Positions 5,987 to 14,156 of a stretch of 64,000 nucleotides of DNA are shown here, one piece after another; the stretch's first letter is position 1; each line of letters opens with the position of its first letter. Position numbers and translations under genes: made by a program. The stretch covers positions 1-64,000 of the forward strand of contig PAJP01000022.1 of NCBI GenBank assembly GCA_002706095.1. Direction: 5' to 3'. The notes beneath the pieces were generated by a model. That model saw nothing but the letters and a program-made list of their open reading frames with translations. It was not told the origin of the DNA and made no database searches. The stretch is from Methylophaga sp. (GTDB lineage Bacteria > Pseudomonadota > Gammaproteobacteria > Nitrosococcales > Methylophagaceae).

Positions 5987-6820
5987 ATGTTTAAGTGGAT
6001 TGGCCTTATTCTAGGCTTTATATTACTCAGTACGATGAGTGTAGGATTACTCATTTTAGGAATTTTTGGCGCACTGATTGGCTTACTGTTTGGTGGTTTT
6101 GCTGACCGTATACGAGCGTATGGTCTGGGCGGTGCTAATCCATTTACAAGTCAAACCCGTCAAACAGTTTTTCTTGAAACTGTGTTTGTTTTGATGGGGA
6201 AACTAGCGAAGGCAGATGGTCGAATCAGCCAGATTGAAATCGATCACGTGGAAGCCTTTATCAAAAAAATGGGGATGTCGGGTGAGCATCGACAAGAAGC
6301 CATCCGCCAGTTTAAGCGAGGCGCAGAACCCGACTTTGATATTACAGACACAATGAATCAATTCAAACAACATTGTGGTAATACGTTTAATCTAAAACAA
6401 GTCTTACTGGTTTACCTGATAGTCATGGCCTTAGCCGATGGTAAGCTTGATCCACAAGAAAAAGATATTCTGGAACAAGTCTCTGCTCAGTTAGGATATA
6501 ACCGGGCCGAGTTTAACCGTATTCTGGATATGGTGATGAGCCAGGCAAGTTTCGCAAGAGGTCATCAGCAGCAATACTCTTCCGGTCCGCAGCGCTCTTA
6601 TTCTGATGAATTGGCCGACGCTTATAAAGCGCTTGGGTTGACTGAAAAGAGTTCTAATCAAGAAATTAAACGTGCTTATCGAAAACTGATGAGCCAATAT
6701 CATCCGGATAAACTCATGGGACAAGGCGTTCCAGAAGATATGATTGCCGTTGCCACAGAGCAAGCGAAAGAAATTCAGTTAGCATACGATTTAATAAAAA
6801 AACATCGAGAACAAAATTAA
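5987..6820 (+). CDS. djlA: DjlA-like co-chaperone with TerB and J domains
   Basis: This membrane-anchored DnaJ-family protein would stimulate DnaK at the inner membrane. The 277-residue product has a long hydrophobic segment with glycine-rich motif (residues 4-38) and a TerB-like helical domain (about 60-185). A short Q/S-rich linker leads to a C-terminal J domain with HPD at 239-241. This is the DjlA domain order. It starts 5 nt after ubiB without an obvious Shine-Dalgarno site, which suggests coupling to ubiB. Confidence 0.88.
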   Translation: MFKWIGLILGFILLSTMSVGLLILGIFGALIGLLFGGFADRIRAYGLGGANPFTSQTRQTVFLETVFVLMGKLAKADGRISQIEIDHVEAFIKKMGMSGEHRQEAIRQFKRGAEPDFDITDTMNQFKQHCGNTFNLKQVLLVYLIVMALADGKLDPQEKDILEQVSAQLGYNRAEFNRILDMVMSQASFARGHQQQYSSGPQRSYSDELADAYKALGLTEKSSNQEIKRAYRKLMSQYHPDKLMGQGVPEDMIAVATEQAKEIQLAYDLIKKHREQN

Positions 6821-6844
6821 CAATTTCGTTTTATTTATTATTAT
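6817..6844 (+). promoter_or_regulatory. Candidate sigma-70 promoter for the riboswitch/VPLPA-CTERM transcript
   Basis: TTAACA (6817-6822), overlapping the djlA stop codon, is followed after 16 nt by TATTAT (6839-6844). A transcript from here would begin around 6850-6852 and include the whole structured leader at 6870-6948. This is a pattern match only. Confidence 0.35.
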
Positions 6845-6869
6845 CTGTTTGGTACTATTTTTTCTGGAA

Positions 6870-6949
6870 ACACTTTAACCAAAGCCAAACTCGGTGTGAA
6901 CCAAGGACGGAAAGTTACAGACCTTATGATACTAAGGTGGCTGTACTGC
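6870..6949 (+). promoter_or_regulatory. Candidate class-I cyclic-di-GMP (GEMM) riboswitch
   Basis: The leader aligns with the GEMM-I consensus: AGCCAAAC (6883-6890) for GGGCAAAC, and AGGACGGAAAG (6904-6914) for GGGACGCAAAG. Stem P2 is 6890-6895 with 6900-6905, with one C-A mismatch and a GUGA (GNRA) tetraloop at 6896-6899. The second arm pairs ACAG/CUGU (6917-6920 with 6941-6944) and ACCUUA/UAAGGU (6921-6926 with 6933-6938), with a GG bulge. On my alignment the ligand-contacting G20 (6884) and A47 (6911) are kept, the 21-46 pair changes from G-C to C-G, and the 19 pair from G-C to A-U. The outer P1 helix is not convincing. SD AAGGA lies just downstream, so translational or transcriptional control is possible. 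Confidence 0.6.
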
Positions 6950-6972
6950 AATAATATCTAAGGAAAGAACAC

Positions 6973-7683
6973 ATGAACAAAATAGTTTTTATCGCACTGG
7001 CTTTATTTACTGGTTTAACTAACGCTGCTATAGCTGCAACAAGCTTATCAACTAATGGTTCATGGCAAACAGCTAATGGCGACCTAAGTTCATTGCTCGG
7101 CCAGTCTGCACCAGCTACATGGTCTTACGATACAGACCTAGCATCAGCGACCCTCTACTCATCATATGCTCTTCCAAGCACAGGCACAGTGAGTACATAC
7201 GTATCATCAAATTACGTTCTCTCAGGTACAGCTGCCCCCACTTTGTTTGATGGCAGCCAGTTTGCTCTCAGTATATTAGATAATACTATTGCAAACCTTG
7301 ATGCATTCAATACAGATATCGTTACATCAATGGTGAATAAAGGTCTCAATCCCGATATCACAGGTGATGCGATTCTATTTACAACTAGCACTCTTTTTCC
7401 GGTGTCTGAATTCACAGAAAGTTTTTCTCTGTCTGGCCTGATGATGTTTGATAAAGACTTTTTCACTGGCCCTATATCAACATTACCTTCTGCTGATATT
7501 CTGCTTGATAATGCATTATTCATTTATGCATCACTTTCACATGAAATTAACTTTGAAGAAACTGGCTTTGCTAGTTATATCCAAACGCCATCAGCAGTGC
7601 CTGTACCTGCTGCCTTATGGATGTTTGCTCCAGCATTGTTAGGTTTTCTTGGTTTGCGTCGCAAGGTGAATACTCAGGCTTAA
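6973..7683 (+). CDS. Secreted VPLPA-CTERM sorting-domain protein
   Basis: This predicted exported surface protein is 236 residues long. It has an N-terminal signal peptide (about residues 1-21, ending ..AIAA). The middle is Ser/Thr/Asn-rich and no enzymatic domain was recognised. The C-terminal tail is VPVP (209-212), then a hydrophobic helix, then RRK (229-231). This matches the VPLPA/PEP-CTERM sorting signal, which exosortase-type systems process before export to the matrix or cell surface. No exosortase gene lies in the window. It has SD AAGGA and sits alone behind the candidate c-di-GMP riboswitch, which suggests biofilm-linked expression. The function of the mature protein is unknown. 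Confidence 0.82.
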   Translation: MNKIVFIALALFTGLTNAAIAATSLSTNGSWQTANGDLSSLLGQSAPATWSYDTDLASATLYSSYALPSTGTVSTYVSSNYVLSGTAAPTLFDGSQFALSILDNTIANLDAFNTDIVTSMVNKGLNPDITGDAILFTTSTLFPVSEFTESFSLSGLMMFDKDFFTGPISTLPSADILLDNALFIYASLSHEINFEETGFASYIQTPSAVPVPAALWMFAPALLGFLGLRRKVNTQA

Positions 7684-7703: not shown

Positions 7704-7739
7704 AAAAAAGCCGTAGTGATAAACCTCTACGGCTTTTTT
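7704..7739 (+). terminator. Bidirectional rho-independent terminator
   Basis: An A6 tract, stem GCCGTAG/CTACGGC and a T6 tract form an intrinsic terminator readable in both directions. It lies between the convergent VPLPA-CTERM gene and fhs and can serve both. Confidence 0.9.
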
Positions 7740-12097: not shown

Positions 12098-13051
12098 TCA
12101 ATCGTCAACCACTACGCCCCATGGGAATTTTCCAACGTTGATAGTTTTGATATTTTTGTTTGTCGCTGTATCAACCACAGAAACCGTGCCACTCACGCCA
12201 TCTGCTGTGTATAAACGCGAACCATCACGAGTCATTCCTAAGCCCCATACACGTTTGCCTACAGGGATATTAGCCTGCATCTCAAGCGTTTTGGCATCAA
12301 GTACTGCGACAGAATTACCACGACCAGTTGTCACGTAGATTGTTTTATCATCAGGACTAACCGCTATGTCCATCGGTTTTGAATTAGGTAAGTCGATTTC
12401 TGCTTGTTTGATAATGGACAGCGTTTTGGTGTCGATAATAGTGACTTCATTACCCACTTCACTGCTTGAATAAGCCAATGAACCGTCACTGTTAAATGCT
12501 AGACCACGAGGACGCGCAGCAACCAAAATATTTTTCACCACTTTATGTTTTGCAGTATCGATAACATGCACCATGTTGGTGGACTCGCTGGTGACCAATA
12601 CCAGACTTCCGTCAGGTGAAACAGCGACACCTTCTGGTTCCAGACCAACGGGAATCACTTCAATGGTTTCGCCTGTTTTGGGATCAATCACACTGGCTTG
12701 TGCGTCATCTTCATTAGAAATGTAGATATTGCCATTAGGTGCCACATCAAATGTTTCCGGATCATCACCTGCATCCAGTTTTTTTACCACTTCTAATGTA
12801 TCAAGATTTACAACGGCAATAGCGCCTTCCTCACTGATGGCAACATAAAGCTGTTTTTGGTCTGGCGATAAACCGATACCTCTAGGACGTTCTCCGATAT
12901 TGATGGTATTGATTACCTCATTGGTTTTTGTATCAATAACACTGACTGTATTGTCTTTTTCATTGGTCACAAATGCACGGTGTGAAGGTTCAGCCCAGGC
13001 CGCTGTGCTGGCTAAAACCAATGTCGTTAACAAAATACTTTTTAATTTCAT
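12098..13051 (-). CDS. PQQ-associated YVTN beta-propeller repeat protein
   Basis: The 317-residue exported protein has a signal peptide (about residues 1-20, ending AWA). It then carries about seven YVTN-type repeats of roughly 42 residues with patterns such as VSVIDTKTNEVI and PRGIGLSPDGS, forming a beta propeller. It resembles the PQQ-dependent catabolism-associated beta-propeller proteins encoded beside PQQ alcohol dehydrogenases. The ATG at 13051 is chosen because AAGGA lies about 7 nt upstream; the longer frame to 13072 has no ribosome site. It follows the substrate-binding gene by about 20 nt. No PQQ dehydrogenase or pqq gene is in the window. Confidence 0.82.
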   Translation of the reverse strand: MKLKSILLTTLVLASTAAWAEPSHRAFVTNEKDNTVSVIDTKTNEVINTINIGERPRGIGLSPDQKQLYVAISEEGAIAVVNLDTLEVVKKLDAGDDPETFDVAPNGNIYISNEDDAQASVIDPKTGETIEVIPVGLEPEGVAVSPDGSLVLVTSESTNMVHVIDTAKHKVVKNILVAARPRGLAFNSDGSLAYSSSEVGNEVTIIDTKTLSIIKQAEIDLPNSKPMDIAVSPDDKTIYVTTGRGNSVAVLDAKTLEMQANIPVGKRVWGLGMTRDGSRLYTADGVSGTVSVVDTATNKNIKTINVGKFPWGVVVDD

Positions 13052-13073
13052 TATGCTTCCTTCTTCTCTCAAA

Positions 13074-13871
13074 TTATTTACAGCTGATTAGTCCAAGACT
13101 ATCCAGCCCACCCTTAACACCTCTTAAAGGTGCTTCGGCAACGATGTTGTCATCTTTATCTATTAGCAGAACAATCTGACGTAATTGTCCAGTATCTCTG
13201 AATGTGGCGGTGTCACCTTTTTGTCCATCAAAAGACAAGTCCTTCTTGAGGTAGTTCAGCATAGCTGCAGAATCCGTTTTTTGAGTTCTCGCTACAGTAT
13301 CAGACAACATTTTGATAGCAGCCCATCCGGCCCATGCATCATCCGTCATTTGTGTTTTATGGTTTCTGGTAAAACGATTATTGAGTTGTGACGCTGCAAA
13401 TTTTACAAAGTCATGATGCCAGGCATGCGCTGTTACTAATTTATCTGGGTTTTTATTTTGCCATTGAGCTAATGCATCCTGCTTCATTTGCTTACTCAGG
13501 GGAATATTTAATAAGTTTGGCAAACAAACCTGTCGCAGACTGTCAGCATCTGAACTCAAATTAAAGACCGGTACAGTAGTCAACTTATTCAGTTTAGCTA
13601 TTTCCAGCATATGCTTTGCATCAGTGCCAACCAGAACCGCCGTTATCTCAGACGCTGGTAATGCCTCAACCTCTTCTTCCGTGATGTTTTTAACATCATA
13701 TGTCTGGCCTAGAAACTGACCTTGCAAATTAGCCTCTGTTAGACCTTGCTGAATACCAGCCCACACTTGGCCATCTGTAGGTCCTATGTAGTGAAGCGTC
13801 ACATTAATAGTATTGGCAAAAATGATTTGGGGCCATAACAGCAGCATGGCAATCCCGAGATTCTTCAGCAT
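13074..13871 (-). CDS. Shortened ABC-type substrate-binding protein of the PQQ alcohol dehydrogenase system
   Basis: The 265-residue exported protein has a signal peptide (about 1-19). Its N-terminal part includes IGPTDGQVW and a ..GQFLGQTY segment. Its C-terminal part (TAHAWHHDF, MTDDAWAGWAAIKML, FDGQKGDTATFRD, GQLRQIVLL) resembles the PQQ-linked periplasmic binding proteins found next to YVTN propellers. Members I know are nearer 350-400 residues. Here the protein passes directly from DALAQW to TAHAWH (about residues 132-151), so the central lobe seems missing in frame. The start at 13871 has GGAG upstream. It is probably cotranscribed with the propeller gene. Confidence 0.7.
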   Translation of the reverse strand: MLKNLGIAMLLLWPQIIFANTINVTLHYIGPTDGQVWAGIQQGLTEANLQGQFLGQTYDVKNITEEEVEALPASEITAVLVGTDAKHMLEIAKLNKLTTVPVFNLSSDADSLRQVCLPNLLNIPLSKQMKQDALAQWQNKNPDKLVTAHAWHHDFVKFAASQLNNRFTRNHKTQMTDDAWAGWAAIKMLSDTVARTQKTDSAAMLNYLKKDLSFDGQKGDTATFRDTGQLRQIVLLIDKDDNIVAEAPLRGVKGGLDSLGLISCK

Positions 13872-14156
13872 ATTTAAACTCTCCGTTATTATTCTTTGTT
13901 TGTTGCCTGTGACAATACACAATCACATGGCTAAATAAATCAGCAAATTCCCTAATTTTATAGAGCAATCATCACTCCATAAGGTTCGCTTCTAAACCAT
14001 TGTGTCAGTAAAACACCCTTTTTACCTCTAGGAGTTTTTCCTGTTTTTTCTGACTAAGATCACAATTCACTAATCACGGCCATCTTTTCGATCGGTTTTC
14101 ATCTCAAGAAATCAGGACCTGTGTCGATATCTTGATTATCACAACAGGTAGTTTTT

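Follow-up and report, generated by a model that had tools for sequence, protein, structure and literature searches.

A class I c-di-GMP riboswitch before an exported PEP-CTERM/VPLPA-type protein gene of Methylophaga sp., with a candidate switching helix and a family-wide gene link

The leader between djlA and the open reading frame at 6973-7683 in a 64,000-nucleotide stretch of Methylophaga sp. DNA (the whole stretch analysed, hereafter the window) is, as judged from its sequence, a genuine class I c-di-GMP riboswitch and an ordinary member of the Rfam family RF01051, for which c-di-GMP is the expected ligand. It belongs to a PEP-CTERM regulon that extends across the bacterial family of the genome, Methylophagaceae (hereafter the host family), as the computed link between riboswitch and gene showed. 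The riboswitch probably controls the translation of an exported PEP-CTERM/VPLPA-type protein, most likely as an ON switch, with subsequent processing of the protein by the exosortase XrtD. The points of interest are this regulon and a helix formed by the aptamer base C92 (Vc2 numbering), rather than the window copy itself.

The aptamer in the window and in its relatives

A search with Rfam covariance models gave a significant match to RF01051 (c-di-GMP-I) at 6874-6953 of the forward strand, with 53.7 bits against a gathering score of 35 (E = 1.1e-7 for the 64-kb window), as expected from a preceding sequence-only reading, which had placed a c-di-GMP-I riboswitch in this leader. No other Rfam match exceeded its cut-off in the leader. 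The model RF03167 (c-di-GMP-I-GGC), which belongs to the same clan and whose consensus has G in the column of the window A47, scored 49.2 bits, under its cut-off of 59, when 6600-7100 was searched. The layout of the locus is shown in Table 1.

Table 1 Features of the riboswitch locus in the window.
Feature	Position	Strand	Basis
djlA	5987-6820		Open reading frame and family match
c-di-GMP-I riboswitch aptamer	6874-6953	+	RF01051 match
P2 helix with GUGA loop (6896-6899)	6890-6905	+	Alignment to RF01051; P2 covaries in the host family
P3 helix; CU:AG step (C6923-G6936, U6924-A6935) opposite the P2 loop	6913-6947	+	Pair listing
Candidate alternative helix between 6922-6931 (5' strand and loop of P3, one base bulged) and 6955-6963	6922-6963	+	Minimum-energy fold of 6864-7000
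Shine-Dalgarno-like UAAGGA	6959-6964	+	Sequence; picked by script
Exported PEP-CTERM/VPLPA-type protein, 236 aa	6973-7683	+	Open reading frame; tail common to regulon proteins
C-terminal sorting tail: VPVPA motif, hydrophobic stretch, RRK	7591-7680	+	Tail model A1; BLAST to other regulon tails
Probable intrinsic terminator (7-pair stem, 10-base loop, T run)	7710-7739	+	By eye

Vc2 numbering was placed on the window sequence by our own count of the register. In Vc2, c-di-GMP is contacted by G20, A47, and C92 (PMC4744006). All three bases are present in the window, at 6884, 6911, and 6949, respectively, and the interhelix pair C44-G83 of Vc2 (PMC3764141) is found at 6908-6940. The 21-46 pair is C-G (C21-G46 at 6885-6910), which is a double change against G21-C46; this swap and the retention of G20 and A47 had both been read correctly from the sequence. 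Positions 19 and 93 are A6883 and A6950, and the A-U pair that the same reading had assigned to position 19 does not exist. A conserved P1 helix found no clear support in the host family, where P1 in the Vc2 register N14-93 paired at 0.433 against 0.437 in shuffles; among the seven registers tried, N11-93 was slightly over its shuffles (0.484 against 0.431, sd 0.018). One mismatch was found in each of the other helices of the window copy, C.A in P2 (6892/6903) and U.U in P3 (6916/6944).

The GUGA loop on P2 and the plain P3 duplex with a CU:AG step facing it, both noted in the sequence-only reading, are present as a candidate loop and receptor, and the consensus receptor CUAAG/UAUG is absent from the window. 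GUGA loops are expected to favour CU:AG receptors. In Vc2, A34 and A35 of the P2 loop dock on A78-U60 and G79-C59 (PMC3764141), and these are, in our register, the same two P3 pairs as the CU:AG step of the window. The window is thus like RF01051/Vc2 in its fold, in the three contact bases, in C44-G83, and in a GNRA loop on P2 facing P3, whereas it differs in having C21-G46 for G21-C46, A93 for C93, and GUGA with a plain CU:AG step for the consensus receptor; the host family as a whole also differs in having no conserved P1 in the Vc2 register.

At least one RF01051 match was found in 40 of the 95 genomes searched, the genome of the window included. Among the matches listed, 150 copies were analysed, 74 from the genus, 66 from the rest of the family, 5 from the order, and 5 from the class. 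The 21-46 pair was C-G in 138 and G-C in 2 of the 140 host-family copies among these matches; G20 and A47 occurred in all 140, and position 92 was C in 138 and U in 2. For the 138 host-family copies of the variant among the matches listed, C44-G83 was found in 137 (T-G in the remaining one), the CU:AG step in 126, the GUGA loop in 112, and A at position 93 in 126, where the Rfam consensus has C. Furthermore, P2 and P3 covaried in 113 variant copies (93 distinct) that are free of N and have a standard-length P2 arm: the mean pairing was 0.945 as compared with 0.843 after reshuffling of the 3' strands (maximum 0.857 in 300 rounds). The covariation, together with four relatives of the window protein that keep the same riboswitch, bore out the assignment in a comparison of leaders. 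The strict variant pattern was found in at least 115 stretches of GTDB species genomes, and the variant was carried, among the matches listed, by many Sulfurovum, Sulfurimonas, Thiomicrorhabdus, Desulfobacterota, and Methylococcales. The variant is therefore a common natural form, and its earlier description as unusual was overstated.

It is very improbable that the variant senses a different ligand, for example cGAMP or some other cyclic dinucleotide. Such a change in specificity might be suspected from the swapped pair adjacent to the pocket and from the prevalence of A93, but the three Vc2 contact bases are kept and G20A, the signature of cGAMP switches, is absent. GEMM-Ib cGAMP riboswitches, which are of the same fold class, have A at position 20, in contrast to G6884 of the window and to the invariant G20 of the host-family copies among the matches listed.

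Genes behind the riboswitches and the sorting system

The genome of the window (3.57 Mb, 25 contigs) has 14 RF01051 matches over the cut-off, and all 14 precede a gene with a PEP-CTERM-type tail, although in one of the downstream proteins, of about 1150 residues, the tail was seen only in a longer stretch. The link between the riboswitch and an exported sorting-domain protein was thus stronger than had been claimed from the window alone. Across the host family, a complete frame lies downstream of 133 variant copies among the matches listed, and in 127 of these it is a PEP-CTERM-type gene; in five further copies, the downstream frame runs past the fetched stretch. The six exceptions consist of two copies before genes with diverged tails (G054:C4 and G027:C16), three copies without a downstream frame, and one copy before a short frame (G045:C17). 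As for the two host-family copies with G21-C46 among the matches listed, one is followed by a complete frame that lacks the tail and the other by an open frame.

Outside the host family, 84 complete frames follow the variant among the matches listed, and 16 of them have a PEP-CTERM-type tail, as compared with 6 of the 678 remaining frames of these stretches (Fisher p = 5.3e-12, kinship ignored, with several matches per genome and with spurious frames included in the background). The variant had no complete frame behind it at 32 more places. For this comparison, 11 loci were set apart as members of the host family, those after L276 by sequence identity. The analysis of the class-wide search leaves out 29 loci (L168-L196).

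The tail model detected 19 genes in the genome of the window, of which five have no riboswitch (G000:C17:1786, C10:49856, C12:35421, C10:111770, and C10:345718). A degraded aptamer before these five genes was considered and rejected, as RF01051 matched nowhere in the stretches fetched with E of up to 1; a part of the exosortase substrates therefore escapes riboswitch control. Because 51 GGDEF matches were found in the same genome, c-di-GMP is probably made in this organism.

The C-terminal end of the protein encoded at 6973-7683 is SAVPVPAALWMFAPALLGFLGLRRKVNTQA. Tail model A1, in which this tail was recognised, was built from 15 rows with the window tail among them. Against the curated models, the window tail scored 10.5 bits with VPLPA-CTERM (TIGR03370; cut-off 25.35) and 13.4 bits with PEP-CTERM (PF07589; cut-off 20.7), below both cut-offs. 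When eight other regulon proteins were scanned, one passed TIGR03370 (37.3 bits) and none passed PF07589 (best 20.3 bits). The genome of the window encodes an XrtD exosortase (TIGR04152, VPLPA-specific) with 557.5 bits against a cut-off of 400. Compared with VPLPA-CTERM/XrtD sorting (TIGR03370, TIGR04152), the window is thus alike in XrtD, the VPVPA motif, the hydrophobic stretch, and the basic end, and differs in the scores of its tail under the curated cut-offs. The name VPLPA-CTERM protein, given in the sequence-only reading, needs qualification in that the tail stays under both curated cut-offs, although XrtD is encoded in the genome.

Among the host-family genomes, an exosortase match above 170 bits was found in 26 of the 32 that carry the variant riboswitch and in 5 of the 24 that lack it (p = 8.7e-6, kinship ignored). 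This count covers 56 family genomes, several of them incomplete, and a weak match in G024 (30.3 bits, over its cut-off) was excluded. The four relatives of the window protein mentioned above, with 44-52% identity, each lie behind the same riboswitch. An AlphaFold2 model of the window protein had a mean pLDDT of 62, with a beta-rich middle and a C-terminal helix, and no PDB match to the model was obtained at E of 0.001 or better. The DNA gave no match to plasmid records. The probable terminator behind the gene (Table 1) is absent from the listing of our scan, which allows loops of at most eight bases. Elsewhere in the window, at 12098-13922, a gene for a PQQ-associated beta-propeller protein was observed (TIGR03866, 343.6 bits against 287.3), along with a partial match to TIGR03863, a substrate-binding protein from the PQQ alcohol dehydrogenase system (125.8 against 413.6), which is in keeping with a methylotroph.

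Pairing of C92 with the initiation region

Shine-Dalgarno-like sequences lie 1 to 35 bases 3' of the aptamer, with a median of 7 (129 copies), and a scan of the coding strand from aptamer to gene in the window gave no terminator. Translation is therefore the likely regulated step. We searched the leaders for contiguous helices of at least seven pairs that contain C92 and whose partner lies at base 17 after the start or earlier. Among the matches listed, 67 of 123 distinct leaders have such a helix with the ribosome-binding or start region, as compared with 11.7 expected from shuffled downstream stretches (sd 3.2, maximum 21 in 200 rounds), and about half of the distinct leaders have none. Five control segments of the aptamer gave no excess of downstream helices in the same test. 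The partner of C92 lies at +14 from the start, within codons 3-6, in 39 leaders; at -3 to -5, over the Shine-Dalgarno region, in 23; at +2, in the start codon, in three; and elsewhere in two. When the +14 type was set aside, the helix was found in 28 of 79 leaders against 8.4 in shuffles (maximum 18).

Both main helix types showed compensatory changes. Their paired fractions were reached by 2 and 12 of 2000 shuffles of the partners (11 and 8 distinct strand pairs), and their counts of double-change pairs by 89, for the commonest type, and 12 of 2000. A test based on folding energies agreed, with a smaller contrast: the computed probability that C92 pairs downstream exceeded 0.5 in 98 of 133 leaders as compared with 67.1 with shuffled tails. 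When the aptamer was forced with C92 left free, the mean accessibility of the Shine-Dalgarno sequence was almost unchanged (0.58 to 0.60, 129 copies).

The C92 helix with the initiation region, which is a new point of the present analysis, suggests a translational ON switch. Without c-di-GMP, the strand starting at C92 would block initiation by base pairing to the Shine-Dalgarno sequence, to the start codon, or to the first codons. As c-di-GMP needs C92, binding and masking are mutually exclusive, and an ON switch is therefore predicted: c-di-GMP would take C92 and lock the aptamer, so that the initiation region is freed. The protein would then be exported and processed by XrtD, with a possible role in the matrix or at the surface.

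In the window copy, the C92 helix is absent (two contiguous pairs, probability 0.02). The P3 5' strand may replace the C92 strand as the masking partner there, through the candidate alternative helix in Table 1. This helix would comprise nine pairs and one bulge, and its strand 6955-6963 holds most of the Shine-Dalgarno sequence. Its computed probability in the window was modest (0.18-0.36 over five lengths), and the fold of the 137-base leader was no better than that of shuffles (z = -0.31). As a general switch, the pairing of P3 with the Shine-Dalgarno sequence was rejected, being found in only 3 of 129 copies.

The effect of a forced aptamer on the window copy depended on the stretch that was folded. 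With 6864-7000, the accessibility of the Shine-Dalgarno sequence rose from 0.66 to 0.73, whereas with 6840-7020 it dropped from 0.58 to 0.32, which is against an ON switch. The latter result would fit an OFF switch in the window copy, in which the bound fold pairs flanking sequence with the Shine-Dalgarno region; inspection by eye shows a possible pairing of 6873-6877 (CUUUA) and 6959-6963 (UAAGG), and class I switches of both signs have been described (PMC9262584). We regard this reading as unlikely, since the shorter stretch shows the opposite change and the C92 helices across the family would occlude the initiation region when no ligand is bound.

The weak alternative helix, the missing C92 helix, and the single mismatches in P2 and P3 might also mean that the window copy is decaying or weakly responding, so that the aptamer fold is kept and switching is lost. 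We consider this somewhat less likely still than an OFF switch. Every contact base is kept, and the four relatives of the protein, which are found in other genomes, have the same leader in the same place. In two of these four, C92 pairs with the start codon with a computed probability above 0.5 (0.99 in G026:C77 and 0.64 in G028:C2); in the other two, the values were 0.34, with base +14 as the partner (G046:C41), and 0.09 (G028:C1). Control of translation remains our preferred reading for the window copy, which may act as an ON switch.

Relation to known riboswitches and wider occurrence

A link of PEP-CTERM genes to c-di-GMP riboswitches has already been published for several genes of one species, Methylophaga nitratireducenticrescens. 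In this species, three adjacent similar genes each have a c-di-GMP-I riboswitch, and the first of them is among the most highly expressed genes (PMC5918138). In strain GP59, seven c-di-GMP riboswitches were reported, and PEP-CTERM or VPLPA-CTERM genes adjoin four of these; for 10 of 11 riboswitches, the relative level was higher in the reactor biofilm, and planktonic anoxic culture gave the higher level of one riboswitch that precedes a PEP-CTERM gene (PMC12530212). Genome G007 has RF01051 matches no more than about 160 bases away from five of the seven GP59 positions in print. The window shares with these riboswitches the genus and the link to PEP-CTERM/VPLPA-CTERM genes. Both reports concern one species, and the sections of them consulted here do not treat the aptamer variant, a switching helix, or a family-wide regulon (PMC5918138, PMC12530212). 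In Geobacter, GEMM-I genes and substrates of the PEP-motif exosortase both appear among expression changes and are not linked to each other in the part of the report consulted (PMC10599522). Among the matches listed from open-licence PMC texts, no account of a wider riboswitch/PEP-CTERM regulon was found.

On a broader scale, we see an even chance that a class of exosortase substrates is under c-di-GMP ON riboswitches in which C92 anchors the masking helix. One subtype would pair codons 3 to 6, so that the switch extends into the coding sequence, and the link to PEP-CTERM genes would recur in several lineages of Proteobacteria and Desulfobacterota. In the host family, where nearly all of the fetched riboswitches of this kind stand before a PEP-CTERM-type gene, the second messenger of the biofilm switch appears to be coupled directly to protein sorting. 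Should the C92 helix be right, more than 100 natural variants of one switch are at hand in which a base is common to the aptamer and the masking strand, and they would serve well to test how sign and threshold are set in riboswitches. Control of PEP-CTERM proteins by c-di-GMP is also predicted for other methylotrophs and for Desulfobacterota, in which PEP-CTERM-type genes likewise stand behind this aptamer variant.

Several unusual arrangements of the aptamer were observed in the course of the searches. Outside the host family, two copies (G060:C1:3676232-3676307 and G071:C83:212-325) combine A20 with C21-G46; G20A can shift the specificity towards cGAMP. Three variant copies without a downstream frame occur in one related genus (L321:1942-2028, L322:1961-2048, and L323:1926-2013), each with a same-strand gene of about 292 aa on its 5' side and a strong hairpin with a T run directly on its 3' side, followed by a convergent gene. 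These copies resemble stand-alone or 3'-end riboswitches that carry a terminator, and they might act in trans. Pairs of variant aptamers about 160-200 bases apart, before one frame, were found at L198, L233, L239, L264, and L270 of Thiomicrorhabdus/Campylobacterota, and these are likely tandem riboswitches. On a contig of an uncultured Methylomonas (L231:2315-5148), four variant copies follow one another, each before its own PEP-CTERM-type gene.
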